Positions 6,099 to 55,031 of a stretch of 64,000 nt of DNA are shown here, piece by piece. Under the pieces are notes generated by a model. The model was not told the DNA's origin, ran no database searches, and saw only the letters and a list, made by a program, of their open reading frames with translations. Location of the stretch: positions 2,108,001 through 2,172,000 of the forward strand of contig NC_089450.1 in NCBI RefSeq assembly GCF_026210795.1, read 5' to 3'. The number at the start of each line of letters is the position of its first letter. Within the stretch, counting starts at the first letter, position 1. The stretch is from Rhizophagus irregularis. Lineage: Eukaryota > Glomeromycota > Glomeromycetes > Glomerales > Glomeraceae. The position numbers and the translations under genes are program-made.

Positions 6099-6308
6099 AT
6101 GACTCTTAAAAGACGATTATCAAATAATATACGAGAAATACAAAAACAACGAAAACATCGGAAAATTAGAGATATGCTTTGTATACGCGATATACGCGTT
6201 AATAATGAAAATACACTGAGACGTATCAACCGACTTCCTATACAAACTACAAGTGATACAAAAGATTTATTGATATACCAATTTTTCAATGGGTCTTCTT
6301 TTTATTAA
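6099..6308 (+). CDS. Small basic protein with C-terminal FFNGSSFY motif (family member 1, 69 aa)
   Basis: This is an unrecognised protein of 69 residues. The N-terminal half is rich in Arg/Lys (KRR at 4-6, KQRKHRK at 16-22). A middle block, NNENTLRRINRLPIQ (35-49), and the C-terminus DLLIYQFFNGSSFY (56-69) are shared with members at 54840 and 34179, and more loosely with those at 18502 and 30040. The last conserved residue is immediately followed by the stop. No signal peptide or membrane segment is visible. The start follows a poly-A/T tract, and a TATAAATA lies 88 bases upstream. The gene appears single-exon. Conservation among divergent paralogues, including the position of the stop, argues for a real coding gene. 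A nucleic-acid-binding or nuclear role is only an inference from the basic N-terminus. Confidence 0.7.
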   Translation: MTLKRRLSNNIREIQKQRKHRKIRDMLCIRDIRVNNENTLRRINRLPIQTTSDTKDLLIYQFFNGSSFY

Positions 6309-8061
6309 CTTTGGCAAGTTATTAATTAAAAGGTAATTGAGATAAGATAAGATTCGTAACAAAAATATATATATATTTTTTTGATAACTAATTATTATTC
6401 ATCATAATTTAACTTAGAACATACATTTATCATGTTCTGAATCGATATATTTTAAAAATTCTGTATATATTTTCCTGTGTATTTTATTTTATTCATTTTA
6501 TATATTTTAAAATTATGATTTTCCTCTACTTATTATTAGTAAGAATAAAAAAATTTTAATTATGTTGCATTTGCAATAACAATAAATACAGTATGAAAAT
6601 ACAATACGACATTCTACCTTTATTATTTCACGTATTATCATACAAATATTTGAAATTTATTTAAGGAAAAGTATAACTTCTATCCATTAATTTGGCTATC
6701 TTATGAGAAACATGTTTCTTCTCAGCTAGGGTGAATCTCAAAACCTTTAGACAAATCACTATCAGATAATTTGTTAGGCGTAAAGCCGTGCTCGTTGGAG
6801 TAATGATTTTCATAACAGGTTTAGTTATTATTCAAATACCAAAATTATAAATGATCGGCTACTCTCAACCGGTACAAATAATTTTAATTCCGGCTAAAAA
6901 AAAAAAATTTTGTCTGCCGGTACAAATATTAAGATTTTTTGAACTTCGATGTCAATTTGAAGCAGTTTCCTAACCAACGTACATAAATTATCGGCTATAA
7001 GTCTTATGTAAAGAAACTTCTTTCGAAGGTAGGTTTTTAAAGTAAATTAAAAATAATAATTTTAAATTCTATCAATCAATATTCAATAATTTTAAATTTT
7101 ACTTCTTTATAAACTTTATTTTCTTTTTCGGTTTTATATGTCTCTAGATATGTTTATATTTATTTATGAGATAATGGTTAATGAAATACTTATAAGGAAA
7201 TTGAAAGGCTAACTTATTTATGTCACATGGTTAAGCATGAGTTTTAAGTTCAGTAAAAAAAATGCAGAAATGTTTAGCCGTGAGAATTATAATCTTAAAC
7301 GAGAAGTTTAGATTGATTATCATCTTAGGCATCGTTAAATAGAAATTTCGTTATATGGCTATTAATGTCCAATAGGAGATTTTCAACATAGCTGATTATT
7401 CCTTTTATATTAACGACGTATAATAAGGATATAAATTCATAATTTTATGTAATCTTTATGTTTCAAATAAAATATACTATATATGTTTAATTAAATAACA
7501 CAGCTTTGATACCTTCTTAATGAGGAAAATTAATTTGAAGCCCAAATTTTAGAAATATCCGATAAAGGTAAGAAAACGCTTTATATACACTATATAATTA
7601 GTTTACATAATTTGGCTAAGTATTATTTACAATAATACTAATTTTTTTTTTAACACTTTTGCACTTTTTGAATGATTTATTATCTTACCGGAGATACCGG
7701 AATATAGTTTATTTAGATTAATTTAAATATAAATAATGGCAAGGCCCGAAAATTGCGGCTATTTACTTTCATCTTTGACATAAATGTTTAAGCACTTTTA
7801 TAATTATGTCAAAAAAATAATCAAAAATTTTTAAGTTTGTATAGTTGCAGGCTTGCGGCAATTGTTTTAATGACTTTCTCCGTTGTTAAGATGGGCGGCA
7901 TCAAATCTATCAATAATCGTTCAAATGCGAATTCTATAATATAGATCCATTTTTCCCTAAGGGTAATTATTATATTTATATACAATATATGAATATGGTA
8001 ATAATAACTTTCAAGAAACAAGACAATGAATAATGGATTGAAGGCCTTTTGACTTAATATA
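6309..8061. other. AT-rich intergenic sequence
   Basis: No supportable gene. A less AT-rich patch at about 7840-7950 reads on the minus strand as a short helical-looking peptide (ERLLIDLMPPILTTEKVI), which may be an old exon fragment; I do not recognise it. The rest is low-complexity. Confidence 0.4.
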
Positions 8062-8152
8062 CCCACATTGAGACGTATCGTGAAACCTTCCTCAAGACTT
8101 CAACAGCTTACAAATTATCAATTTTTTTATTGGATTTTTTTTAAGTATTAAT
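8062..8152 (+). pseudogene. Frameshifted relic of the FFNG small-protein family
   Basis: TGAGACGTATCGTGAA at 8069 is identical to the segment encoding the RRIVN block of the member at 54840. Here one extra A follows before CCTTCCTC, breaking the frame. About 50 bases on, CAATTTTTTTATTGGATTTT aligns with the QFFNGF-coding segment of the member at 34021-34179 but has an extra T. The Arg-rich N-terminal part cannot be found upstream. I read this as a decayed 3' half of a paralogue. Confidence 0.6.
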
Positions 8153-8219
8153 ATCTTATTATTAATTCTTATCTTGCTCCGAATATTCATTCTTCATTTC
8201 TTCATCATATGATCTTTTA

Positions 8220-8451
8220 CAGCTGATTTCATAATGTACGGGACACCTAATAGTTACCGAGAGATGACTCGGTACATTCGGTAAAACTCGGTAAAGTTCA
8301 GAATAAGGTAAAACCATATGTTAGATTCGGAGCACTGGTCCGAGCACGGTGGTGTAGTTTTTATTTTATTCTGAGTTATACCGAATCTTACCGAGTTTCT
8401 CTCGGCATGGAGTAAAAATGATGGGTGTCCCGTGCATTATGAAATCAGCTG
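8220..8451. mobile_element. MITE, family CAGCTGATTTC
   Basis: The terminal inverted repeats are CAGCTGATTTCATAATG then (T/C)ACGGGACACC, nearly perfect, flanked on each side by TA (8218-8219, 8452-8453). The interior is itself palindromic around GTAAGATTCGGT/ACCGAATCTTAC-like segments. A second, shorter copy is at 58070-58238. There is no coding capacity. TA flanks suggest a Tc1/mariner-type origin (inference). Confidence 0.8.
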
Positions 8452-8556
8452 TAAATTAAATTATTAATCCGATCCGGGTGCCGTCATATATCATGAAAAT
8501 GAAAATTTTAACACTTTCACTCTCCCGACACTTCGGAATTTTAACATTTTAGAGAT

Positions 8557-8645
8557 TGGAACCGACCAAAGAAACATTGACCGATTAAAAATTGATTAAC
8601 CGAGGACCTTAACCGATTAATTAAATTAATTAATTACTAATATTA
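8557..8645. repeat. AACCGATTAA terminal-type repeat
   Basis: GATTGGAACCGACC is followed by several AACCGATTAA motifs. It mirrors, in inverse orientation, the sequence at 1-130. A weaker partner, TTAATCGGTTAATTAATTAA, at 9871-9890 could be the other end of an element spanning 8557 to about 9905, into which smaller MITEs have inserted. The boundaries are not proven. Confidence 0.4.
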
Positions 8646-8809
8646 AAAAAAAAATATAGAATTTTTTTTGAATGTAAATTATATCAATTTGTTTCCACTT
8701 ATATATTATTTAGTTCATATTTATTAACCTTAATACTAAAACATTAACGTTAATAAAAAAAAATTCGTTCGAGTTGAACACGTGACCGAAATCCCACCTT
8801 ATTAAGCAC

Positions 8810-8962
8810 GGGCATCCTTAACGTACAGTAGGGGTGTACAATATTAACGTACAAACTGGCCCGCGTTTAGGAGTTATGCACTTGCACGTGATAGCGTTAA
8901 CGTTAATTCTGGCCAGTTCGTACATTAATATCGTACACCCCCACTGTACATTAAGGAATCCC
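8810..8962. mobile_element. MITE R1 with 9-bp target duplication
   Basis: ATTAAGCAC (8801-8809 and 8963-8971) flanks a 153-bp element. Its ends GGGCATCCTTAACGTACAGT and GGGATTCCTTAATGTACAGT are inverted relative to each other, and the inverted repeat continues as (A/G)GGGGTGTAC. The centre contains GCACTTGCACGTGATAGCG. A second copy with its own 9-bp duplication is at 63314-63452. A 9-bp duplication fits Mutator-like elements (inference). It is inserted next to a copy of repeat R2. Confidence 0.85.
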
Positions 8963-9087
8963 ATTAAGCACCCCCAGAAAATAAGCAAGACTGGCCCGAA
9001 TTATGACGATTTGTGCGGAATTATGAAGTTCTTGGGCAGCATTAAGTGCAAAGACGGGTGCTTAATAACAAAATACGATAAATTATG
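8963..9087 (+). repeat. Short interspersed repeat R2
   Basis: This copy has landmarks GGCCCGAATTATGA, GGGCAGCATTAAGTGCAAA, GGGTGCTTAATA and AAAATACGATA. Other copies are at 42860-42955 (+) and 56876-56980 (-). It contains internal GGCC-centred inverted motifs and no coding capacity. It is probably a MITE or MITE fragment; R1 is inserted at its left edge. Confidence 0.7.
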
Positions 9088-10082
9088 ATTTAGATAATTT
9101 TAATCGATTAACCGATTTTTGAGATACTTTAGCGTCAGTTCATGATAAACTTAAAATTAAGAATAAAGCTGTATATATAAAATTATATAATTGTCTAACT
9201 AACCCTATAAAAAATTTTTCAGAAAAATTATCACGTGTTTATTGTAAACATAGTAATTTAAGAAATTGTTTAAGATATTGATTATCTGAAATTTCGAGAC
9301 TCATTCAGGAAATATACTAGTTTTTCATATACAAGTGATTAGGAATGTGTCACCCAGTAAATGGCAGAAGGAACATGTAAATAAAAAAAAAATTCCTAAT
9401 TTATAATATTATTTTAAAGTTGTAAATTACTAAAAAAGGTGAGATCACCATTTAGTATTTAGCAGATCCTGACGCGAAAAAGAAGTACATTCCCTGATTT
9501 TATGGAAAAAGAATCAAATACAACCACTTTAATTTTAGTGGTGAAACGTTATAAATCCACTTATACTACTTATACTACGGGAGATTGATTAGCAATACTA
9601 ACAAAAACTTAAAAATTAAAGTGTTTGTTTAAAACCTTTAATAAAAACTTTATTCAATGATAACCCTCTTTCCTTGCTATAAATGTATATTCACTATATT
9701 AAACATATGTGCTATATTAAATATGTTGACTATATTAACTATATTCGATATATTTGATATACTAAACATGCATAATATTTGAGACATTGATCGTCAAATG
9801 ATCACATGACAACTAGATTTTAGTCATCAATCGGTAGAATATCGGCAATCATTCGGCAAAATACCCCGTCTTAATCGGTTAATTAATTAACGTCCAACCT
9901 TTACAACATTTAGGCCGCTTCAATTTAATTATTTGTCTAACGTACCCCCCCTCTATTTTTTCAAAAATCTGGATTCTATTAAACATATAGTAATAAATAT
10001 GTTTAAATACCCCTCTAAATTTAAATTACGATTTTCCCAAAAGTTATATTATGTTTGTTTATTGTAGACCCTCTCCTCCCTA
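9088..10082. other. AT-rich intergenic sequence
   Basis: No gene was seen. It contains an ATATTAAACATATG/ATATGTTGACTATATT low-complexity stretch near 9690-9770 and an AATCGGTTAATTAATTAA motif at about 9873-9890. Confidence 0.5.
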
Positions 10083-11765
10083 GGGATTGGAATCGATTAG
10101 TCGAAAATCGACAAAACATAGTAAAATCGATTCTCGAGAATCGATTCTCAGCAATTTTTTACATGTAAGTTAACCTGACTCCAAAGTAATTTTCATGCCG
10201 GCCAAGTGCTGATTATTTTTGCTGAAATTAGAAACTGATTCAAAGTCAGCATAGCAGGCTTTCCGATTTTCGAATAATCACATGACGATTGGCAAATGTG
10301 ATTTTTACTTAAATAACAAATAAAATTTAAGTAAATCATCAAGTTTTCAAGTAATTTTAAATGACATAACAGTCGTAACACTGACGTAATTGTTTGTTAC
10401 ATAGATATGTATTTTATTGGCTGGATATCAAATGTATCGGCATATGATAATTGTACTAATTTATTTTAATTGTGCCACAAAAAATTTAATAGCGAAGGAC
10501 AATAAAAAAAATCGATTCTTCAGGTTATGTTTAAACGTATTACAAAGGAATCTGGCTATTGGAGACGGAATCCAGAAGTTATAAATACTTGAAAACTTCT
10601 TATAAAATGAAAATAAGCATAGTACATTTTCTTTCAAATTGTAATAAGCTGAAGAAACAAAGAAATATGAGATCTATTTACAACAATGGAAACAGACATA
10701 TTCAAAGGTTTGTTTTTACTTAAGCTTTTTATGTTTATTGAAATTTATGATGGAAGAACCCTTTTGAAGAAGCTCTTTTCTTTGTATATTTAACAACTTC
10801 TTAAAAAACAAATTTTTTGGGTTTTATAATAAATTATTTACATAATTTTTCTCTGTTAGAAACTGATCTATCTATTATTTTATTTTCTTTGAATAGTGAA
10901 TGACTCTTTTTCATTCCTTTAAATAAAATACAAAATCTTAAAAATAACTTATTGGTAAGAAATTTTATGATGTAATATTAGTAATATGGTATTATTTTCT
11001 CAGTGTGTATATTGGCTAAACAAACAATTTTACATTTTAAAAGATTAAATCACACTCTAATTTTGGAATCAAAGATCTTTCCAATTGATTCACTACATAT
11101 AGAAATGTTGACAATCAAATTCATAATTAGGAATAAATGTGTTGAACGCATTTATTCATCAACCAATGATTCAACCAAAGTAATTTTTAATTTGTTGGAT
11201 AGGTCTTGGTCTATTCTTTAAAGTGAATATAAAAACGTCCGCCTAGTTTATATGTAAGTTAAATTATTTGCATTTTTTTTATAAGAATTATGTTCAATTT
11301 TAATTTTACACAGATGATATATATTAAAGTTCTTTATTTTACATCCATATTCAGTAAAATTTTGAATACAAGTATATCAAGTTGCTATTTATTAATTTGG
11401 AAAGTTTGAGTTATAATTATTATGTAGAATTTTGAATTCACCAAACATTTATATCAAAAAAATGTATTGATCACGTTAAATTAATAAGTTGTTACATATA
11501 AAAGTTAGCCAATAATAATCTGATTTTAATAAAAATTGGTATAATTAAAATTTAATATAGGACATATATATTGATAGAATTTAAGGATATATTAATATGC
11601 CGAATTTTTCAAAATATTAAACAATGTTTCATATCGGAATTGTATATCACGTGATAAATTCAAAAAAATTCATGTGATAAAATCGAAAGCCTGCTATGCT
11701 TTCAAAGTCAGGTTGGTCGTCTATAAGAAAAATCTTGAAAAGATTCGATTTTCGATTCCAATCCC
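10083..11765. mobile_element. TIR element, ends GGGATTGGAATCGA
   Basis: GGGATTGGAATCGA at 10083 and its inverse TCGATTCCAATCCC ending at 11765 bound a 1.7-kb stretch. Subterminal segments also match inversely: GCATAGCAGGCTTTC near 10240-10263 and its inverse near 11688-11702, with further ATCGATTC-type motifs in both ends. No target duplication is evident. The interior contains a 72-codon unrecognised frame at 11003-11221 and no transposase motif, so the element is presumably non-autonomous or decayed. Confidence 0.65.
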
Positions 11766-11803
11766 CGGCAGTCATACACAGTCATACGCACAAGAGCATA
11801 ATT

Positions 11804-12010
11804 GATCGGCATAATTCTGGCCAAATTATAACTTTGACCAGAATTATAATTCCCATTTTAGGAAATTTAATGTTACACAAGTCTAAAAGGAACTTTCATT
11901 TTTTGGAAAAAACAAAAGTTGTGGAATGCTATTACCAAAAAAGGATATGATCGGCATAGCATTTTATAATTCTGGCCAAAATTATAATTTTTCTGGAATT
12001 ACTGCCGATC
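11804..12010. mobile_element. MITE with GATCGGCATAATTCTGGCC ends
   Basis: GATCGGCATAATTCTGGCC starts at 11804. The inverse-type sequence TCTGGAATTACTGCCGATC ends at 12010. A further GATCGGCATAGCA...TTCTGGCC segment near 11949-11976 suggests an internal duplication or a second insertion. It is non-coding. Confidence 0.65.
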
Positions 12011-12109
12011 AATAATAATTTTTGCGTATAGGTGGTCCGTTATTTTTGCAAATAGCTGTAAAATGCGGCTGATTGTTTACTAAATAAATATTGAAATGTA
12101 TCCCTATAA

Positions 12110-12485
12110 AAAATAGATATCCGGAATTCGTTCAGAATTTGTCTAATATAAAGTTTTGGACAAATTTCGGACAGATAAACCTGGAAAATAATAAGATTCA
12201 GATAATTTGAACTGGACAATTTCTGGACATGAAAAAATTCAGGACAAATTCTGGATGCCATTTCTAAAAAAGGATAAAATAATTTTGTAAAAAAAAAATG
12301 CAAAAAGCAACAAAACTGACATTCATAACCTTCTTCGTCATACTAATTAATTTACTGAGCAGGCAAAAATAAGCGTCCGGAAATGAGTGTATTTTTGGAA
12401 CAATTTCTGGATACAGCACATGGTCATTTTCTGGATAATTCTTTAGACAAATTTTCAGACAATTTCCAGGCAATTTCTGGACATT
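12110..12485. repeat. Degenerate array of TTTCTGGACA-like motifs
   Basis: About a dozen variants of (A)TTTCTGGA(C/T)A or its relatives (AATTTCGGACA, CAATTTCTGGACA, CATTTTCTGGATA, AATTTCCAGG) are scattered over 370 bases with irregular spacing. Reading frames through it show periodic PEN/PEI-like peptides because of the repeat. It looks like a decayed tandem repeat or the repeat-rich end of a mobile element. Confidence 0.6.
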
Positions 12486-13826: not shown

Positions 13827-13827
13827 A

Positions 13828-17493: not shown

Positions 17494-18397
17494 TAAACTA
17501 GGAAATGACCAATAAATTATTGAATAAATAGAGCTCAAAAATTTCTTTTCTTTCGAAATTTTTTTTTTAAAAAAAAAATATTTGAAATCTATAAAATATT
17601 TGTATGATGATAAATGTAATTTATTTTTTTATGAATTTTATTAATATCACAAATAATGATACTGTATACAAATACATTTTCTCATCTTTCCTTTCATTTC
17701 GTAAATGTTACTTACCAGAGAATTATGTAATAATCAAAAGCTGTTCAGTTATGCAAAAAGATTCTTCTAAATCATGCTGTAAATTTAATATAAATATAAA
17801 TGGATAAATTATTTTCTTATCCGCTGCTAAATTATAAATACTTTATTTACTTACACATATTATTAATAATTCTACTAATTTGTCATTCAAGTTCAAAGAA
17901 ACACTTTTCAGCGGCGGATAACAAGTTTTTTATTACGCCTATCAACAATCATTATCATCTCAATTAAAATGCTGTTGATTATCAAAACTAATAATGAATG
18001 CCATGTTGACTTTTTTATTTACCATTTAAGTTTGTTTAATCTTTAAAGTTCAATTTCAATCTTCATCAATTTTTTTTTATCTTATTTACAGAATTTATTC
18101 GTCAGTTTACATCCATCAATCTATCCATCAATCAATTTTTTATTCATTATTAATTATTCATCAGAACTTAAATTTTCTATTTATTTATTTATTTATTTAT
18201 TTTTTTTGATATCATCCACATAAGATGATCATACAATCGTTGTTCATTTAATTTTACCGTTTATCATTGTTATCATTGTTACTTTCTTATCTTGTGTTTC
18301 TATTTATATATATATATATATATATTTTTTCTGCGGCATAACGTTTATTTGTGCACTTCATTATGTCAATAAGGTAGTGATACGTAACATTATAGTA
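17494..18397. other. AT-rich intergenic sequence with microsatellites
   Basis: No gene was seen. It includes a (TTTA)n stretch at about 18178-18202 and a (TA)n run at 18305-18325. Confidence 0.5.
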
Positions 18398-18405
18398 TAT
18401 AAATA
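18398..18405 (+). promoter_or_regulatory. TATA box of small FFNG gene 2
   Basis: TATAAATA lies 104 bases before the start at 18502. The 14-mer AGTATATAAATATA around it is identical to the one upstream of family member 3 (30040). Confidence 0.5.
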
Positions 18406-18501
18406 TAGGCACTTCTCTGTTATGTGTACTGCTAAACGTTTTTTTACTTATTCTCCTAAAAAAAAAAAGAAAAAATAAGTCATATTTACGTAAACGGCAA
18501 A

Positions 18502-18717
18502 ATGACCTTAAGTACTTTAAGACATGGAATAACACAGATTTCAAGATTTGATACAACGAGAAATCAATTAGTAAACAGGAGGACTCGAAGACGTTTACGG
18601 CATCCTAATAACCGCGTAAACATATTAAATCGCGTCAATATTATGCCAAACTTACCTCTACAGAATACAAATAACCGATTGATAGACTCGTTTTTCAATG
18701 GGACTCCTTTTTTTTAA
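18502..18717 (+). CDS. Small basic protein with C-terminal FFNGTPFF (family member 2, 71 aa)
   Basis: This unrecognised 71-residue protein is the most divergent full-length member of the local family. Its Arg-rich stretch NRRTRRRLRH is at 25-34. A PNLPLQ block (49-54) corresponds to the LPxQ block of members 1, 4 and 5. The C-terminus RLIDSFFNGTPFF (59-71) ends directly at the stop. No signal peptide or membrane segment is evident. The start is the first ATG after the TATA box and lies in a purine-rich context. An open frame overlapping the stop (18698-18889) lacks features and is ignored. Function is unknown; membership rests on the shared architecture and C-terminal motif. Confidence 0.65.
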   Translation: MTLSTLRHGITQISRFDTTRNQLVNRRTRRRLRHPNNRVNILNRVNIMPNLPLQNTNNRLIDSFFNGTPFF

Positions 18718-21631: not shown

Positions 21632-22471
21632 TTGCTCTTTATTTTAAAAAAACGCGTCCAATATTATATAAACCACGGCATTTCGTCTAAAAAAACTTTA
21701 TTTATAGACAATTACCGGGTTGTACTTATGTCCTTATTGTCAAATAATACGTTATGCAAGAAGTTTGAGTGTGGAACATGTGGAAAAATCTATAAAAGAC
21801 ACTCTGGTTTAGAAAATCATATATTAAAAGTTAAAGAAGCTAATACTATGAGACCGACAGTTTATGATTTGCCTGAGAAAGCTATTGAAGAAACGCGACA
21901 GGCTTTGGTTTATCATATAAAAGAAAAACTAAAAAAAAATTCAAGACATGTTGGGGGTGTTCGTATTATGGTTAGTTGCACAGAAAGTCAATTTTTTGGC
22001 GTTTTTAAAGGATATATACACGATTATTATCCAAAAACGGGAAATTATAAGTGTATTTTTAAAGGTGTTAGTTCTTACCATACGCTATCAAATGTATTGG
22101 GAGATGATAATTGGGGTATCAAATATTTTTCACAGCAACAACAAACATTTGTTTTATCATACCAACAATCACCAAATCCGAATGATCCTGATCCTCTCCA
22201 AGAACCTGATCCTCTTCAAGAACCTGATCCTCTTCAAGAACACGATCCTCTTCAAGAACACGATCCTCTTCAAGAATCTCTACAAGATCAAAATAAGACA
22301 TCAATGCATACAGCTAAAAAACGACGAATATATAAACCTAAACCCATACAAATCGTGATTTGCTGGAAGAGAAAAACAAAATCAGATGTGCGTAGTATTG
22401 TATATTCATCAGGGTTTATTTTTATAAATTTTACAATTTCACGTACAAGAGTTATAGAAAATTTTTATTAA
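21632..22471 (+). CDS. Zinc-finger-like protein with DPLQE repeats, transposon gene 1
   Basis: The frame gives 279 residues. A second ATG at 21728 (residue 33) is an equally plausible start and would give 247. Residues 46-62 contain C-G-T-C ... H like a C2H2 finger (CGTCGKIYKRHSGLENH), but the expected second histidine is absent. A conserved-looking domain follows (about 69-175: MRPTVYDLPEKAIEETRQAL, then HVGGVRIMVSCTESQFFGVF, then YHTLSNVLGDDNWGIKYF). Next come five tandem DPLQE(P/H) hexapeptides and a basic tail (KKRRIYKPK). The gene converges on the transposase gene, with about 250 bases between. A DNA-binding accessory role in transposition is inferred from position and the finger. I know no named family for the middle domain. 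Confidence 0.7.
   Translation: MLFILKKRVQYYINHGISSKKTLFIDNYRVVLMSLLSNNTLCKKFECGTCGKIYKRHSGLENHILKVKEANTMRPTVYDLPEKAIEETRQALVYHIKEKLKKNSRHVGGVRIMVSCTESQFFGVFKGYIHDYYPKTGNYKCIFKGVSSYHTLSNVLGDDNWGIKYFSQQQQTFVLSYQQSPNPNDPDPLQEPDPLQEPDPLQEHDPLQEHDPLQESLQDQNKTSMHTAKKRRIYKPKPIQIVICWKRKTKSDVRSIVYSSGFIFINFTISRTRVIENFY
22190..22279 (+). repeat. 18-bp in-frame tandem repeat, five units
   Basis: Five units of GATCCTCTTCAAGAACCT-type sequence encode (D)PLQE(P/H/S). Units differ by one or two bases, so the expansion is recent. It is a coding minisatellite within transposon gene 1. Confidence 0.9.
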
Positions 22472-22723: not shown

Positions 22724-25009
22724 TTACTTAACACGTAAACGTTTTGGCAATTGCATTGAGTCAATTTCATCATGTTCTTTAAAATATAAAAGTCTATTTT
22801 CATATTCAAGAATATCAATAATTGCAGACTTTCGTCCTTTTCCGGTACCACCATCCTTAGTTGTTCTTTTAAAAAAGTGAGAAACTTGTTGGTGGTTTTT
22901 TTTTTCCACCGCTGAGCAAGAAAATGCTGCTAACCCAAAATTATGATGAATACGCATCATTTCTGGAATATGGTACACTAATACATGCATATAAGGCGTG
23001 ATATCACTTGCCTGATAAAAGTAATTAGAATCTAAGAATTGATGCAGCCACGCACGAGCATCATTAGAAAATTGCGTTGCATCAGTTTTAGAATCTTTCA
23101 TTGCTTTATGAAGTAAATAAAATTTATCCCATAAACTTCGAATTTGAACTGCTCGTGAATATGGAAAAAGTTTAGACAAATCAAAATGTTGAAGTACAAC
23201 TAATTTATCTTGTCCCATTAAAGAAGTATATTGCCAGTTAGTTGATCCTATCTCAAGCCAAAAATGAAATTTAACATCAATTCGTTTCATTTCTTCAATT
23301 ATTACATTTCTTGCTCTTTCTCCCCAGGTATTTCTAGATCTGAGTTCATCAAGTACTAATCGCCAAAGAACATCTGTAATACGTAACATAATATGCAATT
23401 CGTCTGGCACCCAGTGTTGTAAAGGAATCATATCAAAAATTGCTGGTCGAATATGTCCCTTATAAAATGTATAATCTTCACGTACTTGATCCATGGTTTT
23501 ACTGATTGTCCATTCATATGAGAAATCACCCTGTTGTTCTTTTGATACTTCACACCAAGGACAAAAATACCTACTATTTGCTGCATTTAATCCTAAACAC
23601 ATTGCAAGAAATTTCCAATCTGAAGAGAAATAAAGTTCAACCTTCCACTCTATATTCTGATTGTCTTTAAAACCTTCTTCTTTTAATTTTCTCAATTCCA
23701 TAGCTAGTGATTTTAAAACATTATTTAAAGTTTCGTATTTTTCAACACCAGGATAGAGGACTATAGTGTAATGATTTTCAGGCCGATATAGATTATCAAT
23801 ATCATCAAGAATTGAACAAGTAATCATAACCTGTTTAACCTTCCGTCCAACGTTTCTCCCATCACCAGAGATTCGTAAATGTATTTTTGGATTCATTACA
23901 TCTAAAATTTTCCTTTCAATAAGACCAGGTATTAGATATTTTAAAATATCAACAACATTTCGTCGTCCACCTTTTCCAATTGATTGTTGCATATTATGAA
24001 CAATTTCAGCATCATTGATATGTATTTCCGAATTTACAAAATCATCAGATCCTGGCAATATATTTATCAGTGAAATTGGTATAATTTCATTCATTTCGCG
24101 TGTAATATCTCTTTTTTCTACAGAAACTTTCCATTCACGTGGCAAATCTTGACTAATTGAAGCCAAAGTTCGATATCCTTCGCGTGATACTTGACCTTTA
24201 TCACATGCTTGAACGGCAGCTCTTGCTTTATGCTTTATTTCTTCAATATTTTCCTTATTTACACTAAGGTAAAAAGAATTATTTCCAATATCAAATTCAA
24301 TAGATTTTAGACTAAGATTATCATCTGAATGACAATCTTTTGCCGTTACTTGATCAAATATTGTAGATATAGACTTTGCAATTTTTTTGGCTCGATTATT
24401 CTGCCCAGTTGAAGTTAAATTGTCAAATGATTTTAGGACTGTTGCTCGTTGATGAATATCTCTTGCTTGCTGAAGTATTTCTAAATGAAGTCCAAAAAAA
24501 TGTGGTCCTGAATAGCGCGTTTTAATTTCTGGATTTAAGGCCTATTATAAAATTTTATATTTTACATTAATAAAATTTTTAGAATAGTTCTTTAATATTA
24601 ATTTCTGTTTATTACAATTACATACTTTAGCATATAAACATGCTGCATTTGAGCTTGATTTTTCTGACTTTACATGATATTGAAATTTATCTCCATAATA
24701 TATCCAATAAACTGGATTTTTTTCCATATATTTAATCATACATCGAACTACTTGTCTTGTCTTAGGTTTTCTTAAACTTACTTTAACTTCATAATTATCT
24801 GGAATTCGAAAACCTTTTTGACCTTTTGTATATTTGAGATAAGTAGCATGTGGATAGTTTCCTTCTTTAATAATATCATAAGTATAACTTCGCTCACTAT
24901 CAGAATATTGAATAATGGATTCTTTAGGATAATTATGAATTTCAACAGGTTTCTTTTTCTTAACTTGTTGATCTGTTTGAAGTGGTAAAGAAATTTCGTT
25001 AGCTTCCAT
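22724..25009 (-). CDS. Putative transposase, two exons, 733 aa
   Basis: Exon 1 is 25009-24626 (128 codons). An 84-base intron runs from GTATGT to ATAG. Exon 2 is 24541-22724, and the frame is continuous across the junction. The N-terminal region is basic (KKKKPVEIHNYP) with an NAACLYAKALNPEI junction. The C-terminal half carries acidic and metal-site-like motifs: LRISGDGRNVGRKVKQVM, KVELYFSSDWKFLAMCLGLN, a CxxC (FCPWC), VPDELHIMLRITDV, and near the end FGLAAFSCSAVEKKNHQQ. The order Asp, Asp/Glu-Leu-His, late Glu is compatible with an RNase H-fold DDE transposase, but that is inference. Similar proteins are multicopy in glomeromycete genomes, to my recollection. No stop or frameshift is visible, so it may be functional. 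Confidence 0.75.
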
Positions 25010-30004: not shown

Positions 30005-30012
30005 TATAAATA
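30005..30012 (+). promoter_or_regulatory. TATA box of small FFNG gene 3
   Basis: TATAAATA sits within the 14-mer AGTATATAAATATA shared with member 2. It lies only 35 bases before the start codon, much closer than in the other members, implying a very short leader or a different start site. Confidence 0.4.
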
Positions 30013-30039
30013 TACATTATATTTATACAAGTATACTCA

Positions 30040-30201
30040 ATGGACCCTTATAGAAGAAATAGAAGACGCCGATGGGTTCCACGTCGAAGGGTTGTCAGTA
30101 GGAAATTTCCTACCATGTTAGAACTTATTTTGAATATTCAACAACAAGAGACTGATGTCCCGATACAACAAGCCTTATATAATGGATGTTCTTTTTATTG
30201 A
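30040..30201 (+). CDS. Small basic protein with C-terminal YNGCSFY (family member 3, 53 aa)
   Basis: This unrecognised 53-residue protein begins MDPYRRNRRRRW, closely parallel to the starts of members 4 (MAPQRRRR) and 5 (MPRRNRQRRRR). Arg makes up about a quarter of the protein, all in the first 21 residues. The centre (MLELILNIQQQETDVPIQQA) corresponds to the helical-looking block of the other members. The C-terminus LYNGCSFY (46-53) replaces FFNGSSFY and ends at the stop. There is no signal peptide. The start codon is fixed by the conserved M-x-P-x-R-R pattern. Confidence 0.65.
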   Translation: MDPYRRNRRRRWVPRRRVVSRKFPTMLELILNIQQQETDVPIQQALYNGCSFY

Positions 30202-33300: not shown

Positions 33301-34020
33301 GGGATGTCACTCATTAATCACAAAATCACGTGATCGAAAAAAAACAATTTTTTCCCTAATTATTATTCGCTAAAATTTCCTATCCGAATTAGCTTTCATT
33401 ATTTACTTAGCTATGCTTTTGATGATGAACAAATCGAAATTAGAATAAACAGGAGAAATAATTTTCTCAGTCCTTTGCACATTCTCAGTCCAAGAGCCAC
33501 CCTTCCTATGATGCCGTATAACAAAATTTTATTTTATTGCCGATTAATTTTTTCTTTATTTTATGTTGAGAACCAAACCTTTATCGGAAAATTCTAGACC
33601 AAATCAGGTAAACAATTTTCTTAAAAATTTATTATTTAGCTATTTCAATAATAAATAATATAAAATAAAAATAATAATCTTCTATTATACAGTAAATACG
33701 CTCTTTGTATAAGTAAACAATATTTAAATTGCGAACTGATAGAAGAATTAAAAATGGTAAGATGACAATTTAATAATTAAATAATGAAGATTATTTTATA
33801 AACGTCTATCCGATACTACAAAGACAGCTAATAATATTTCATGTTTTTCAAGAAAAAAATTCAAACAGACAAATACATATAATAATAATGAAATTTTATC
33901 AGATAAAACGTCTAAAATAATAAGAAATTCTAATTAAAGAAGTACTTTATTACAATTTTTTACATAATAAGTCTTTTCTTACCTGTCAATTTTTATTTTA
34001 GCTTTTTAATCGGTTATAAT
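33301..34020. other. AT-rich intergenic sequence
   Basis: No gene was seen. There is a TCACGTGA at 33326-33333. Confidence 0.5.
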
Positions 34021-34179
34021 TTACATAGAAAATCCATTAAAAAATTGGTCTATCAATAAGTCGTCATTTTGAATTTGTTGAGGAAGTTTCTCAATGAGTT
34101 TCAACGTGTCTTCATTTCTGATGAGTATATTAATTTGAACATGTTTTCTATTTGTTCTTCGTCTTCTTTGAGGAGCCAT
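34021..34179 (-). CDS. Small basic protein with C-terminal FFNGFSM (family member 4, 52 aa)
   Basis: This unrecognised 52-residue protein is the shortest intact member. The N-terminus MAPQRRRRTNRK is Arg-rich. The middle NEDTLKLIEKLPQQIQNDD (22-40) aligns without gaps to the NEDMRRIVNLPRQQI block of member 5 and the NENTLRRINRLPIQ block of member 1. The C-terminus LLIDQFFNGFSM (41-52) ends at the stop, with Met in place of the usual aromatic pair. It is the only intact member on the minus strand. A minus-strand TATAAATA lies 94 bases upstream. It is single-exon, with no signal peptide or membrane segment. Confidence 0.68.
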   Translation of the reverse strand: MAPQRRRRTNRKHVQINILIRNEDTLKLIEKLPQQIQNDDLLIDQFFNGFSM

Positions 34180-34272
34180 TACAGTATACTATATAGTAAT
34201 ATAAAATGTTGAAGGAAAATGATGTTTTTATGATACGTAAGGGAATGAAAATATTTTTTAATCTTGTGCGTG

Positions 34273-34280
34273 TATTTATA
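34273..34280 (-). promoter_or_regulatory. TATA box of small FFNG gene 4
   Basis: TATAAATA on the minus strand, 94 bases before the start codon, in the context TATATAAATACACG. Confidence 0.5.
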
Positions 34281-47295: not shown

Positions 47296-47534
47296 CTTCG
47301 TTACACTCCAGACAAATAAGTTGAAACTAGCAATATGAAAGTGAAATGTATTCATTATTACTCCTAATGTGGAACCAAAATCCTTTGATTCTGTTACTGT
47401 AATAGCTAAAAGATAATGTGTAATCGCATTATCGTATTTGTAAGTACCAAGGTCTTTATTGTTCATTTAAAACAATTTTTTATATTTAAAAATTTATATT
47501 ATGCTTTAAAACATACGCTATCATTTTTTGTGGT

Positions 47535-47800: not shown

Positions 47801-47934
47801 TTTTTGTGACCTATCAGTCTTGGATATGAAACATCGGTTGATTTATGATTTATTACATAACTTATAATACTGTTATACAAATTATAATTTATATATTTAC
47901 AAAAACTTAATTATTAATTATACAATATCGGATT

Positions 47935-49493
47935 TTAATCGCTATTTTCGTTAATTATAATAATTTTATCATCTTTACTATTTATTTTTGGTTTCGTGTT
48001 CTCAAGTGATATACCACTATTTTCATTATCATAATTTATATCATAAGATTTTGGAAAAAAACCTTCATTCAGTATAAATTGAATTAAATTGCCAATCCCT
48101 CCAAATGAACGTCCTGTTTTTTTTTTTAAAAAAAAAAAATTTGATTATTTAAACTATAATTACTTTAAAAACATATACGTTTATGTTTTTATTAATTCTT
48201 TACCTATAGTCCCCATAACATAGACCCAAGGTTCTTCATTCTAAAAAAAATGAACACAATAAATTAAGTATAAAATCAAAAAAATATTAAGATATTATTT
48301 CTATAGAATACATTACCAAAACAAATCTGGCACCTTGAGAAATTAACATAGGGATCCATTGTAAAATGAACATAGCTATATAACTCAAAATTTTTTTTGC
48401 AGCCTTTCTTTCAACTTCAGAATAATGTTCAAATGCAATAACTCTAACATTTGCAGTATTTTCGTTCCGACTACTTCGACTATTTGATGATGATGATGAC
48501 AAAAATTCTGGTGCTTTGTGGACTTTTCTTAATATACTTATATAACAAAATAAGATTATCGATAATACTATCGTTATAGTAGAAAATAATATTATTGCTG
48601 AATTAATTTGTCCTGATTTTGCAGCACACCTAACAAAATGAAATATTTTAATTTTAAATATATAATATATGCTGCCGAGAAATAAATCTTGAAAGTGAGA
48701 ATGGCTTACCAATAATCACGTTTACCATTATTTTGTATATTTACTAATTGAATTATCATACTTCCTGCAATTACAATTAACCAAAGTTTATAATCATATT
48801 TGCCATAATTAAGATGTATTTCGCGACAAATTCGAAGATAGGTTATTATCCTATTAAAAAAAGAAAGAAAGATTTCTTTAACTTTAAAAAAAAAACGAGT
48901 AGAAGTAAAATTAAAATTTTAATACTTACGCTATTACAGCATAAAAGCATATGTTTATCGTAAGAAATGCCCAGTTAAGTGCGCCAATTATTTTACATGG
49001 CATATTATTCCATACTTGTGCATATATAGCTGTGTGTAACTATTTAAAAAATTGTAATCTAATTCAAAAATTTATGAAATTATAAATTTAAAATATGCAT
49101 TTAATTACTTACCATATTAATAAAAAAATTGCAATTTATTAAAAAATCTAAAAAAGTAAAGACAAATATATAAAAAGGCTATCGATGTACGACATAATCG
49201 TTTTATAAATCCTACGTACCTGTGCACGCAGTATAGAAAGGTAATCTATAAATCATGGCTAATTTTTTTCTACTTAATATCCACTGCATATAAACCCTAT
49301 AAAAAACATAAACACATCCGATCAAGCCTAATACAATCATCGTTAACGAAAAATCTACCACTAAATGGAAATTATTTATATTATCCGGGGCATCCAATCG
49401 ACCATCAATCGCTAAAATAACGTCAATGAATAGAAATAGAAGGATTATTATTGACATAAATGAATATTTTATAAATAACTTATTATTAATCAT
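47935..49493 (-). CDS. Seven-transmembrane GPCR, seven exons, 362 aa
   Basis: Exons are 49493-49220, 49147-49113, 49039-48930, 48850-48710, 48629-48317, 48240-48204 and 48113-47935, all with GT...AG borders and a continuous frame. A hydrophobic N-terminal segment (about 10-30) is probably a signal peptide. Membrane segments lie near 43-63, 84-103, 120-146, 160-177, 195-220, 266-290 and 295-322. Cys118 (MPCK, start of TM3) and Cys188 (WCAAKSG, loop 2) suit the usual TM3-loop disulphide. Loop 3 is Ser-rich (PEFLSSSSSNSRSS), and the tail after NEGFFPKSY is acidic and Asn-rich. A plasma-membrane receptor is inferred; the ligand is unknown and I cannot assign a fungal GPCR class. It is a paralogue of the gene at 59852-61567. 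Confidence 0.85.
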
Positions 49494-51335
49494 GTTAAAA
49501 AATTGATAATAAAAGAATGTAATGATGTGCGAAGTGTGCGAAAGTAAAATTTATTAAATAAATATGGAAGGAAAATAAATACAAAATCGGTAAAAATAGG
49601 TGAAAGAAACGTAAAAGCGTAAAATAGGTGTGATGAAAATATATTAAATAATAATTTATAAAAGTTCAAGAAATCTCTAATTAAATATGAATCGGGTCAA
49701 ACCTATAGTGTTGTACAATATTTCTAATTTGGGATGTCATAAAAGGTTTCATAAAATCTAATAAATATCCAATATTTTGTTTCACAAACATATCGCTATC
49801 ATAACAAAATACATCGCAATATTTGTTTGTTAGCACAAATAAGGTAAGCAAACTATAAAATTCCCCGGTCTTACTTATTAACGAAAAAATATTAAAATAT
49901 TACTACAGACTTTACAACTGTGCTACAAACAATATACGGATATGACCAGTGTTGCCGGTTCTTATCGTTCTCGGTAATTATTGAAATTATCGATATCTTA
50001 ATAGTAAAAAGATATTGACGTCGAATATAACTAAACTTAGTACATTGATTACTGTAAAACCAGAGAATAATGTTAAATTTACTTCGAAAATTCTATAAAG
50101 AAAAAAAAGTTCTTAGCCACCAACTTTAAAATGTTTTGCTGACCAAAGTAATAACGACAATTTTGGTTAGATCACTTGGATTAATTAAACTTTAAAAAAT
50201 AATGTCACACGTTTGTCAATCATTATTTAAAATATGATTGTAACATGTTTGATAAAAAAAATCAAGACCCTTTTTATATACATTTTCTTAATTGATTATA
50301 TACTGTACATACGAATACCGCTTATACTCAGTATATATTTATCACACAATACTAGCAATTAATTGTGCAATTCTTGTACGCCTTACATAAGTCATTATAG
50401 CTAGCATCTATTTTGAACTATCCCGCCGATCTCTTGTTTCACGAACCATTCAATTTGCCAATTAAATATACTTATAAAGAATGTTTGGTAAAAAAATAAA
50501 ATAAATTAGTAAATGCATAAATAAATGAATATTTTATAGATAAGGATAATAAAATTTTTTTGATTATCATCAAATTAATAATATTTTAACTTAAAGGAGT
50601 ACAAAACACAAATGATGTATATAAGTGAACGAAAGAAGTAAAAGAAAATTTTGTATCACTTTAATCACCCATTCAATCATTTTCAAATTCAAAAGTTAAT
50701 AACTTTAGTTATTGTATTTAATATATAACATTTTATTAATGAAGTAAATAATACTTCCATATATATACTATTACACAGTGAAATTCAATATACCGGACGT
50801 CCGCTCCAATAGTAATCCGGTATATCGTGTAGTTCAGTAAGATCCAGATTATCGTATTACATTTCGTATATAATATTTATTATTACGAAATTATAAATTA
50901 CATAGATACAACAGTTGGTATCGCAACGTTGTTAATTTAGTCCTTGTCTTGGTGCGACCATTACACGTACCGTAAATTCATATTCAAAAGATAAAGGAAT
51001 AAAAACATAGCAGCTAGACATAGTAAGAAGCCACCAAATGCCCACCATTAGCTTCTCCGAGTTCAATTAGAAAGAAAAGAAAATATTTTATGGGAGTTTA
51101 ATACATGTTCAAGTTTGTTAGTGTAACTTCAATAAAGAAATGCACCATACCATATAATTATGATGGAAAATTCCTTTTAATCACTAATCACAACTATCTA
51201 TAAATTTAGCGATATTATATATACTGGTCTCGTAAGCTTAGCCATAAGTAATATGAGTACGTTAGGAGATTTTTAAAAGGTATTAGGTAAAGGATTGAGA
51301 AATAGCTAATTCAATTAAATAAAGTATTAGATCGG
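49494..51335. other. GPCR 1 upstream region and AT-rich intergenic sequence
   Basis: No gene was seen. Segments at about 49744-49850 and 49935-50090 resemble those upstream of the second GPCR (about 61910-62045 and 62275-62360), so the duplication included promoter sequence. A single TATACCGGACGTCCG / CCGGTATATCG pair at 50790-50825 may be one end of a transposon. Confidence 0.5.
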
Positions 51336-51485
51336 CATTTCTAAATCTCACCGCGGGTGATTTTAACCGCACCAGCATTAGCAATTATTAATGGGCGGAG
51401 TTTCATGACATTTGTAATTCTGCCAAAATTCTACTCTAATCCTGGTAAGGTGACAATTACCAGCGGTGATATTTAGCAATACTCG
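51336..51485. mobile_element. MITE with CTAAATCTCACCGC ends
   Basis: The left end TTCTAAATCTCACCGCGGGT, followed by a GATTTTAACCGCACCAGCATTA stretch, mirrors (inverted) the right end TTGCTAAATATCACCGCTGG, followed by TAATTGTCACC. The element is about 150 bases with imperfect ~45-base inverted ends. The target duplication is unclear. Confidence 0.6.
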
Positions 51486-51757
51486 ATCTTAGAATTTTTT
51501 AAAAAGTGTATTTTTTTTTTGTTCCGAAAATTAATTAATTGTTTTGTTGTAAAAATATAGTTGTGATAAATTACTTATTATAACAAACTAAAATCACCAA
51601 ACCAGAATGCCAGCTGAACTTCTAATATCTTAATTTCCTATGACTGGCGTCAAACTGCAGCGAAGTCGAATTCGTACGACAGATTGTACAACCTACAGAG
51701 GAAATGAATTCTCATATTACAGTATATGCATATTATTTAAAGAAAAAGTCTTTATGC

Positions 51758-52880
51758 CACCCAGGTGGTACATAAATTTTTTTGCCACCTTTGATCACGT
51801 GAGTAAATTTAAAATTTGATTGGCTTGCCTTTATCCTCCTTGGCTTTGATTTGGTGATTCTTATTCTTTTTTATTTATTTGGTTATTTTTGTTCTTTTGA
51901 TCCATTTCTGTCATGCTGTACATCTGAGTTTAATAAATTGCAGGCACACCACGCGACATTTAAACAATAAAAAAAAACAAAAGAAAAATTTGTAAATTTT
52001 AAACTTGTTGCCATCAATCAAATAAATCGAAAAATTTAATCTGTTAAAAAATTCAATGTTGTACAGTGCGGTACCTCTATAACCGACCCAATTTTATAGT
52101 CATAATGTGACATTTTCAAAAAGATGTCACATTAGCAAAAAATAATATTTTAAAATTCTAACCGATAATTTTAATAAAGCATATCAAGAACTTTTAAACT
52201 TATCGGGTTAGATTAAAAAATAATAAATTTTGCTAGAGTTTGAAGTTCGGGTAATTTATTATGATGGGAAAAATTTGAGAATAAGTGATTTTGTGTAACA
52301 TAAAAAAAAATAATCATTTGATAGTGCTTATTCAAATAAATCATTTTAGCTTATAAACTTACGTATGCTTTGTTAAAGTTTTTATTTATTACAAATTATA
52401 TTATGTCTATTTCTCAAAAAGGAATCACAGGAAAACTTGCTAAAAAAATATAAATCCCATAGAAAAGTTCCTGATGATATACTTAATCAAATTACTTTAA
52501 ATAATTATAATGAATAATAAATTATATATAAAAAATTATGCATAATTCTAATTAACATTAGGTATTGCATTAGCCAATCAAATTTATTTTAAGTCATGTG
52601 ATTTTGTATTATGTCAGCAAAAAAAAAATTGAGAAAATTTTTTTATTTGCTTAATGTATTTATCTTTTTAAAAGCTATCTAATTTTAAAATTTTATAAAA
52701 TTCTGACCATTAGATCACAAAATATAAGGGGTACCTATTATAGAGGTACCGCACTGTATGTACCGGATAATAATCTTTAACTGTTAATTAAGAATTTAGT
52801 AAAATTAGCCAATCAAATTTATTTAAATCACGTGATAATGGTGGCAAAAATTTTATACCACTCGGTGGCACCTAAATAAC
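51758..52880. mobile_element. TIR element with GGTGGTA/GCCACC ends, host of a pogo-like element
   Basis: The left side (GCCACCCAGGTGGTACATAA, then TTTTTTGCCACC, then GATCACGTGA) is mirrored on the right (GTGCCACCGAGTGGTATAAA, TTTTTGCCACC, TTATCACGTGA, read inverted). AATTTGATTGGCT also matches in both arms. TCTTTAT at both outer edges may be a 7-bp duplication, though the right end is longer. It is split by the insertion at 52064-52756. Confidence 0.65.
52064..52756. mobile_element. Pogo/Tigger-like DNA transposon relic
   Basis: TA (52062-52063 and 52757-52758) flanks perfect 19-base inverted ends CAGTGCGGTACCTCTATAA, the pattern typical of pogo/Tigger elements. At about 52411-52516 the plus strand carries pieces of a coding end (SQKGITGKLAK, then KYKSHRKVPDDILNQITLNN) separated by a frameshift. 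This may be a transposase remnant after a large deletion. It is inserted in the GCCACC element. Confidence 0.82.
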
Positions 52881-53224
52881 TCTTTATATTTTAAATTTCA
52901 ATTTTGAACAAACTATGCTTAATGAAAGTAATTGTGAGGTCACAGCAAAATTATGATTAGCCACTATTGTTTTTATACCATTGTTTTATATGCTAAAAAG
53001 AATGAGTAATGATAAATGACGGACTTGTCACACTCTTTGCTCGACATCAGGAAAATGATTGTTTGGTAATTGCTGTGTAACCGCAATGAGAATACTTTAA
53101 GTTGTATGATTTGCTTTTTTTTTCTCTTTAAACATAAATAAGGAAACAAAAAAAATTTTTATATACGCTTTTTGATAATCACGTGATGTTAGTTAAATTT
53201 CATGTTTTGAGACTATAAATTCCG

Positions 53225-53472
53225 TGAATATGAGAAATAACGTTCTTTTTCTCTTTCGTTCGCATACAATGCTGGTAATGCCTAGCTTTGTATTTTTCAA
53301 TAGTAAGCAGTACGATCCCTTCTTAGTAGAAGGGGTTGGGTTTATATGGGTACAGTGTTAGCGTAGTAGTTTCCTTTTGTAAGGGCTCAGCCCACAAACT
53401 TGTATGGCTCCCGTCATTGTCTATATTTTAAAAATAAAATAAAATAAAATAAAAATGAATATGAGAAATAAC
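53225..53472 (+). mobile_element. 5'-truncated LINE 3' end with 17-bp target duplication
   Basis: TGAATATGAGAAATAAC occurs at 53225-53241 and 53456-53472. The insert 53242-53455 ends in a (TAAAA)n tail. Its last 90 bases are related to the insert at 33045-33281 in the opposite orientation. The empty site (TTCCGTGAATATGA...AATATTGAATAAAAAA) is recognisable at about 28280-28325. Confidence 0.88.
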
Positions 53473-54760
53473 ATTGAATAAAAAAAACAAGGAATATTCC
53501 GTTTATTCCAATTGATAACTTAATTAGTAATCATTATTTTCATTTACATATTTCCCAGTGAGGTATTATCTGTTATACAAGAAAATTAGTCTTCATATGA
53601 CTGATAAAGCAATTCACAAAATAAGGTAGTAACCCCGGAAAAAGTTTCTTTACTATGTTGCGTCAGAAAAACTTTTAATTGGAAATTTTGATGGTGATCA
53701 TGCAAGAAAATTGAAGATAATATGCTTAACTTCTATTGTTCTACATAATATTGCATAAATGTTTGTTTTTCATATATGCAAAACTTTAACATAAAATAGA
53801 AAATTTACCTATCAAGGAAATTATCCTTTTTTGAAAAATTTTCTATATAAGATAAGTATTGAAAGGTCATTGTCCGCTAAAGTTAATTAAAGATAAATGA
53901 ATTAAATGGCAATAAACTGTAAAAGGACTCATAATAAACCTTCGTTATTGGTTGAATAGCTCGTCGCAAAAACGGGCGTGACGGAAATAATATGTTTTTT
54001 TCCGTTGGCGTCCTATAAATTTACTTAACAGATTTTATTTATAGCAATTATAATTTCATTGATTTTATAACAAAGAAAATTTTCATCTTTGATAGTGTAT
54101 TTTCTTCAGTGCTTTAATAATTGGATAAATTAAACATGATATTGATTATAGTAAGGTGAACAATTTATTTGCTTTGGGTTTAATATTAAATTATTTTAAG
54201 TAATTTAAGACATCGCATTATCTGATTAAATTATGATATAATAAAATAAAAAAAAATATTTTTTCACGACTTTAGCTGAAATACACAATCGGTAATTTAT
54301 CTCGCAATATCACTAAATGCACACGCATCCTTAAAAATCTCATTCTTGGACTTAAAAAAGCAGGAAATATATCAGAATTAGCATTAAGCCTTGTTCGAGA
54401 ATTCGTCATTTAACAAATACTAGGAAACGCAAAATCCAAGAATATGAAAATCCATATATTAAAATAAAGTTCAAAAGGAAATAATGTGTTCTCTCCCGTT
54501 GACGATTTGTATGCTATTCAAACTTTTCATTATGTAAATTTTGTCAGATGATGAAAACACTTTTTGTAATTGATAGTAGAACTTAAAGTTGGTCACAAAA
54601 AACAAATATTTGCGCCCTTCATTTCCTTCTTTCAAAATTTATAACGATAAGCATATGCGTATGTTATATAACTAAAAAAAGACTTATCTTATTATCTTCG
54701 GCAAACAGCGTATTTGAATGCGTGATTTTTTGAATTTTAAATTACATGTAAAATATCTGT
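53473..54760. other. AT-rich intergenic sequence
   Basis: No gene was seen on either strand. Confidence 0.5.
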
Positions 54761-54768
54761 TATAAATA
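54761..54768 (+). promoter_or_regulatory. TATA box of small FFNG gene 5
   Basis: TATAAATA in the context CTGTTATAAATAAACC, 79 bases before the preferred start at 54840. Confidence 0.5.
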
Positions 54769-54839
54769 AACCAAGTATTTTCTCACCTTTTTTCAATTTG
54801 TTCTCCCTCAAAGTGTATAGAAACGATTATTACGGTACA

Positions 54840-55031
54840 ATGCCAAGACGGAATCGACAGAGAAGGCGAAGGATAAATGGGGTATCCAGAAGGAATACTC
54901 GTAACTCAATAAACTCACCTATTAATAATGAAGACATGAGACGTATCGTGAACCTTCCTCGTCAACAAATTACATATAATATAGATAATTTGTTGATAAT
55001 TCACTTTTTCAACGGAAGTTCTTTCTATTGA
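54840..55031 (+). CDS. Small basic protein with C-terminal FFNGSSFY (family member 5, 63 aa)
   Basis: This unrecognised protein is open from 54798, but I chose the ATG at 54840 because it gives MPRRNRQRRRR, the start pattern of members 3 and 4, and 63 residues; the longer form would add 14 atypical residues. The Arg-rich region spans 3-21 (RRNRQRRRR, then RRNTRN). The middle is NNEDMRRIVNLPRQQI (29-44). The C-terminus NLLIIHFFNGSSFY (50-63) ends at the stop and is the same octapeptide as member 1. The coding sequence around RRIV is identical to the relic at 8069. It is single-exon, with no signal peptide. A DNA- or RNA-binding role is speculative. Confidence 0.72.
   Translation: MPRRNRQRRRRINGVSRRNTRNSINSPINNEDMRRIVNLPRQQITYNIDNLLIIHFFNGSSFY

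Follow-up and report, generated by a model that had tools for sequence, protein, structure and literature searches.

What are the five tiny open reading frames (ORFs) that recur along a 64,000-bp stretch of the Rhizophagus irregularis genome (contig NC_089450.1; C22:2108001-2172000, hereafter the window), and how far does their kind extend? An earlier note, made from the letters alone, had read them as a local cluster of intact single-exon genes for Arg-rich proteins ending in an FFNGSSFY-like motif, and had proposed selection on the protein, a nucleic-acid-binding N-terminus and a C-terminal short motif recognised by a partner. All five frames are present and intact where the note had placed them; each is named here by the first coordinate of its coding strand (6099, 18502, 30040, 34179 and 54840). 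They are part of a large clustered family with about a hundred copies in R. irregularis. The note thus saw a clustered family correctly but drew it too narrowly, as tblastn searches of the 146.7-Mb genome (32 contigs) with the five proteins at E<=10 yielded 121 distinct places on 19 contigs, merged by hand and script.

Matches to protein 6099 (best non-self E value 2.9e-6) extend to the last or penultimate query residue in 66 of 69 cases, and the same protein reversed found a single place (E 0.153). Member 30040 is the outlier: its best non-self tblastn match has an E value of 0.11, and it scores 9.8e-11 against the family profile in an iterated search whose profile itself included it. Among the 121 places, 100 have a neighbour within 100 kb, as compared to a mean of 18 and a maximum of 37 in 2000 random placements; 36 lie on contig C22 (2.0-3.4 Mb), 19 on C15, 15 on C17 and 8 on C6. 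As a test of the family, a DNA pattern that merely encodes FFNG...F performs poorly: it gave 73 + 47 matches, and its backward reading still gave 28 + 37. By eye count, about 35 of the approximately 100 listed pattern places (120 matches in total) are an unrelated repeat, TTTTTTAA[CT]GGTAATAACTTTTA, which encodes FFNGNNF in a short frame.

For a closer description, 160 partly overlapping loci were fetched, leaving aside 20 pattern places, and an iterated profile delimited 134 distinct frames in them (numbered L here; database relatives are numbered P). Without one fragment 133 remain, of which 21 lack an ATG 40 or more codons before the end; setting aside L116, L154, L055, L076, L046, L075, L061 and L106 from the other 112 left 104 members for analysis, although at least five of these (L013, L115, L035, L120, L157) resemble second exons and the status of L070 and L140 is uncertain. 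Members have a median length of 63 residues. The part preceding the last 28 residues contains 19.2% Arg and 4.3% Lys, compared to 4.7% and 8.9% in 1037 random ORFs of 50-80 residues from the same loci, and carries a mean net charge of +8; an Arg content of at least 15% was found in 82 of the 104 members and in 15 of the 1037 random ORFs. The tail follows the consensus LxxIxxLPxQxTN[DN][PL][FL]xxQ[FL]FNG[SF][SP]F(x) and then stops. Relative to the G of FFNG, whose conservation is built in because it served as the anchor for picking members, the best conserved columns are Q(-13) in 89, Q(-4) in 87, F(-2) in 99, N(-1) in 94 and F(+3) in 96 of the 104 proteins. Four residues separate this G from the stop in 74 members, three in 25, five in 3, two in 1 and one in 1; the stop thus falls 3-4 residues past G in 99 of 104, or in 100 of 112 if the set-aside members are restored. 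The architecture of an Arg-rich N-terminal part and a short C-terminal motif, described from five proteins, is therefore supported in the wider family. Two known motif types were considered for the tail and dropped: a PIP box in [DN]xLIxxFF, because key positions vary (A at -6 in 26 and L at -3 in 20 of 104), and the EH- or AP2-type NPF/DPF motifs, because P/F alternates with L/L at that place.

That these frames are coding genes is supported by purifying selection, by DNA similarity that mostly stops at the frame and by a TATA box at a preferred distance. Pooled over 29 independent, non-overlapping pairs, the ratio of nonsynonymous to synonymous differences per site (pN/pS) is 0.43, with 0.35 in the tail and 0.51 in the N-terminal part, and 242, 211 and 317 differences fall on codon positions 1, 2 and 3, respectively. 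Neutral simulations matched for the number of differences and the share of transitions gave 0.74 with a minimum of 0.62. The pairs were chosen at 60% protein identity or more, a choice that favours conserved proteins and was not imposed on these simulations, in which a mean of 6.5 of the 29 pairs fell below it. It was imposed for the 17 pairs that differ by less than 15%, where 0.42 was observed against 0.75 simulated and none of 300 simulations came that low. Comparison of 45 loci, each some 3 kb long, gave 157 pairs that align over the frame; in 119 of them DNA similarity stays within -30 to +40 of the frame, and 20 pairs share more than 100 bp beyond it, with varying ends. Longer segments were apparently duplicated, after which everything except the frame decayed. 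The box TATAAATA was found in 102 upstream regions 21 times in the 75-100 bp bin and 14 times in the 100-125 bp bin, where mononucleotide shuffles predict about 1.2 each, and A occupies position -3 of the ATG in 73 of 102; the members are kin, however, so these TATA and column counts are not independent. Selection on the protein, which the note had read from divergent nucleotide sequences with a common architecture, is borne out by the low pN/pS and the frame-confined similarity.

According to the databases, the family has so far been seen only in Rhizophagus. A 66-member profile compared with 5.8 billion proteins gave 55 matches at E<=1, none with a functional name, and the named organisms among them were R. 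irregularis strains, R. clarus and R. diaphanus only, which agrees with the lineage restriction suggested before; 49 of the 55 were examined, and as the search requires shared 5-residue words it may have missed remote relatives. The earlier note had counted a complete lack of homologues elsewhere as a refutation, and the relatives in R. clarus and R. diaphanus show that there is no such lack. At E<=0.1, no Pfam family was hit by two or more of the 66 aligned members, and the best match of the family profile among solved structures had an E value of only 0.86. The note knew of no described family with this signature; likewise, no published description was found in the literature searched, as judged by titles and the openings of abstracts, and the locus tags of six members were not mentioned in the papers searched.

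The tail is portable rather than private to tiny proteins, and regarding it as a mark of the latter was too narrow, since it also terminates two-exon genes with a weakly F-box-like first exon and occurs in HMG-type and C2-domain proteins. Just upstream of 12 of the 134 frames, including the doubtful L070, at least 60 open codons end at a donor-like AGGTA[ATC]. The upstream exons of L013, L015, L017 and L024 and the fragment L127 form one homologous family (42-46% identity to L015), and those scanned (L013, L015, L024) match F-box-like weakly, with E values of 2.3e-4 to 0.016. By eye, the exon boundary reads AAGGTA in most of the eight loci printed, with an AG acceptor about 80-110 nt downstream. 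Longer frames (607-632 codons) on C19, C17 and C22 also contain relatives of this exon, and the tail-bearing version hence looks like a derived fusion that arose within the C22 cluster.

The second context consists of proteins of 141-150 residues, namely the C11 frames L116 and L154 and the database relatives P0002-P0004, in which the tail also carried by the window proteins lies inside the protein. A profile built from tiny members only detected five such proteins at 26-30 bits (E 1.9e-5 to 3.5e-4 per 1e6 sequences), and the best of 2971 scored shuffles reached 16.1 bits with the same profile. Five genome matches of P0004 (three on C18, one each on C1 and C15) coincide on the same strand with above-cut-off matches to PF00505, for which 150 of 275 candidates in the genome were scored, and in all five HMG position 1 falls at P0004 residue 38-42 (register set by hand). 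As these coincidences are by estimate far beyond chance, the N-terminal domain of P0002-P0004, L116 and L154 is probably a divergent HMG box. Nineteen of 64 P0004 matches cover both this domain and the tail (residue <=38 to >=123). Between 2.0 and 2.54 Mb of C11 there are places that match only the tail part of P0004; one of them, L055, combines an Arg-rich start and the tail with an extra ...LESLILP-like extension and is intermediate between the tiny and the HMG-type proteins. The third context is P0039 of R. diaphanus, in which a C2 domain above the cut-off is followed by an Arg-rich part and the tail; P0016 and P0029 of R. irregularis contain part of its N-terminal sequence.

What might such proteins do? 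The Arg-rich N-terminal segment most likely binds nucleic acid and/or directs entry into the nucleus, and the C-terminal module of about 25 residues most likely docks one common partner protein. The mini-proteins could then act as stand-alone adaptors that carry the partner of the tail to nucleic acid, or alternatively compete, in the manner of microProteins, with the larger tail-bearing proteins. As the tail is constant and the part preceding it is basic or probably nucleic-acid-binding (in some genes with an F-box-like part before the Arg-rich one), a docking tag is the economical reading. We give an even chance to the whole of it, that is, a tail docking a shared partner, Arg-rich or HMG parts holding nucleic acid, and mini-proteins serving as adaptors or competitors; binding, docking and competition are what we infer. 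Compared to the earlier interpretation, coding capacity, clustering, lineage restriction, the Arg-rich N-terminal part, the C-terminal motif and selection on the protein all stand, whereas its scope was too narrow.

Several observations weigh against this reading. The aligned columns of the 29 pairs are 86% identical in the frame, against 82% in the upstream and 83% in the downstream flank, and with flanks nearly matching the frame the selection signal is moderate. Reading continues beyond the tail in seven of the 112 M-start members (L116, L154, L055, L075, L061, L076, L106) and, among the 21 frames lacking a usable ATG, in at least 6. L030 (C22:2463360) and L140 (C22:2483324) contain the tail, or the preceding block, as a tandem repeat in a single frame; a free C-terminus is therefore no strict requirement. 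Member 30040 lacks most of the block. The F-box-like scores fall under Pfam's cut-off. A direct Pfam scan of the HMG-type proteins found no HMG box, and neither did PDB searches for which one of these proteins and their profile served as queries; the HMG assignment depends on P0004 matches that are individually weak (E 0.0155 to 2.2). The C2 fusion depends on deposited gene models, another of which, P0012, clearly merges two adjacent members.

Several alternatives were weighed. If the free FFNGSSF(Y) end were a C-terminal degron read by a ubiquitin ligase, the proteins would be short-lived and the F-box-like members would target themselves or their partners. The near-fixed distance between G and stop (99 of 104) and the presence of the tail on genes with the F-box-like exon would suit this, but a free-end degron would not tolerate the members that run past the tail (7 of 112 and at least 6 of 21) or the two that repeat it or its lead-in, and the long conserved LPxQ...Q stretch exceeds what such a signal is generally held to need; we regard it as unlikely. 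Hardly probable either is that the proteins are Arg-rich packing peptides of chromatin or RNA whose tail serves self-association only. A mean net charge of +8 in the N-terminal part and the strong preference for Arg over Lys, in loci where random ORFs contain about twice as much Lys as Arg, speak for it; yet it is the tail that is better conserved than the N-terminal part (pN/pS 0.35 versus 0.51), and larger proteins carry it too. Allele-like recognition or drive genes, distinguishing self from non-self among co-existing nuclei or strains, would account for many diverged clustered copies in a fungus whose single cytoplasm houses many nuclei (PMC6281316, in the part available) and for the connection with HMG-box proteins, among which sexM/sexP homologues are counted in these fungi (PMC3834313, likewise in part). 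The selection found is purifying and not diversifying, though, and we consider this reading very unlikely.

A secreted effector or a transposon is less likely than the docking of a common partner. Effectors directed at the host or at neighbours would have to leave the fungus unconventionally and enter plant nuclei; in favour of this, the family is lineage-restricted, multicopy, clustered and Arg-rich, but by eye no signal peptide is visible in the five window sequences, whose starts are polar or Arg-rich without a hydrophobic stretch (no predictor was used), and HMG-type and F-box-like proteins carrying the same tail are expected to act within the fungal cell. This leaves the effector reading improbable. 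We give next to no credence to coding remains of transposable elements or decaying repeats, which the many dispersed copies and the 21 of 133 frames lacking a usable ATG might suggest, in view of the purifying selection and the positioned TATA boxes. Moreover, close copies share flanks of varying length and distant ones mostly the frame alone, and no element ends common to all copies were found in the 45 loci of about 3 kb, where similarity ends vary and lie near those of the frame in 119 of 157 pairs. In-frame stops occur at only 5 tblastn places, two of which (C22:2908307, C11:2059093) are stop-free in another reading. An origin from a giant virus was considered and rejected: the window has a guanine-plus-cytosine (GC) content of 22.8-32.8% in 2-kb steps, compared to about 36.6% in the endogenous giant-virus region of R. 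irregularis, which is located on chromosome 8 of strain 4401 only according to the available part of its description (PMC10640383), and the one protein compared, 54840, has no relative in viral contigs.

Among known systems, microProteins are small proteins that retain only the interaction part of larger regulators. The window family resembles them in being tiny and sharing a module with multi-domain relatives that may likewise serve interaction, but it keeps a basic N-terminal part of its own. Lentiviral Rev, an RNA-binding mini-protein with an Arg-rich motif, combines a short Arg-rich stretch with a short hydrophobic docking peptide; one family member matched Pfam REV under the cut-off (E 0.0064), but the match is compositional only and there is no common tail. 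The MATA-HMG or sex-type HMG-box gene family of Rhizophagus (PMC3834313, PMC4771724; Riley et al. 2014 is cited for it) has a parallel in the HMG-type branch (P0002-P0004, L116, L154), which is also multicopy in this genome and whose tail directly follows the probable HMG region; the window proteins differ in having an Arg-rich stretch in place of the box, and no common tail is mentioned in the available parts of these two papers. PF00505 matched none of the five window proteins, was not among the families for the 66 aligned members at E<=0.1, and, with 150 of the 275 genome candidates scored, gave no place inside the window. The SP7-like effectors of R. irregularis are also a Glomeromycotina-specific family; they are described as secreted (PMC11333574, in the part available), whereas by eye no signal peptide can be seen in the window proteins.

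Within the window (Table 1), each of the five genes has a TATA box upstream, four of them at 79-106 bp and that of 30040 closer. No upstream exon ending at an AGGTA[ATC] donor after at least 60 open codons was found for any of the five, searching from 250 bp before the frame; the single-exon structure claimed earlier thus fits these genes, while some members elsewhere have two exons. The M-x-P or Arg-rich start is indeed clear in three (MPRRNRQ, MDPYRRN, MAPQRRRR). The N-E-[DN]...I..LP.Q block, attributed to all five, is clear in 6099, 34179 and 54840, degenerate in 18502 and absent from 30040, and the FFNG-type ending holds for four, with FFNGFSM in 34179. Member 54840 is identical over its full length to the R. 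irregularis DAOM 197198 model RIR_jg15229.t1. The deposited model has 73 residues, 10 more than the window ORF; judging from the DNA, these stem from a 4-nt first exon and an intron spanning the TATA box, apparently an artefact of gene prediction. The 3' flanks of 34179 (33950-34020, minus strand) and 54840 (55040-55110, plus strand) have the stretch GACAGGT[AG]AGAA[AG]AG.CTTA.TA.G in common (by eye).

Table 1. Family members and TATA boxes in the window, and the repeat that mimics the tail. Places are those found by tblastn in the same genome at E<=10; protein ends run up to the stop codon.
Feature	Position	Strand	Sequence	Places	Remarks
Member 1	6099..6308	+	...LLIYQFFNGSSFY	69	69 aa
TATA box of member 1	6011..6019	+	TATAAATAC		ATG 88 bp downstream
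Member 2	18502..18717	+	...LIDSFFNGTPFF	74	71 aa; relative P0054 on JGI contig
TATA box of member 2	18396..18406	+	TATATAAATAT		ATG 106 bp downstream
Member 3	30040..30201	+	LYNGCSFY	7	53 aa; no LPxQ block; most divergent of the five
TATA box of member 3	30005..30013	+	TATAAATAT		ATG 35 bp downstream
Member 4	34021..34179	-	...LLIDQFFNGFSM	61	52 aa; best non-self match E 3.5e-9
TATA box of member 4	34272..34280	-	TATAAATAC		ATG 101 bp downstream
Member 5	54840..55031	+	...LLIIHFFNGSSFY	34	63 aa
TATA box of member 5	54761..54769	+	TATAAATAA		ATG 79 bp downstream
FFNGNNF repeat, example	C1:1424443-1424465 (L001)				also L005, L007, L008; contaminates simple FFNG pattern searches

Four further ORFs of the window had no Pfam match, at E<=0.01 for the first three named here. 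Two paralogous small membrane-type proteins of 93 and 113 residues (49212-49493 and 61226-61567, both minus strand), containing ...NFHLVVDFSLTMIV.GLIGCVYVFYR..., lie about 12 kb apart. An intact ORF of 456 residues (22724-24094, minus strand) adjoins a C2H2-like ORF (21728-22471), and our guess is that it is a repeat-derived gene. With its hydrophobic N-terminal segment and several Cys, a 70-residue ORF (8876-9088, plus strand) may encode a secreted peptide or else be a first exon.

The large gene expansions of arbuscular mycorrhizal fungi are unexplained, and as these fungi are difficult to transform, much of gene function has to be deduced from sequence. About a hundred small genes without functional annotation, linked by their tail to HMG-type and F-box-like proteins, offer a common testable handle on such expansions, with the practical caution that gene prediction may wrongly fuse or lengthen proteins of 50-90 residues (P0001, P0012). 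More tentatively, and with considerable doubt, one could suppose that Rhizophagus has evolved the FFNG tail as a portable address tag of its own, read by a single receptor whether it sits on one of some hundred mini-proteins, on an F-box-like ligase subunit or on a mating-type-like HMG-box factor. If this were true, the mini-proteins would constitute a large tunable layer that competes for or redirects one receptor, in transcription as well as in protein turnover.

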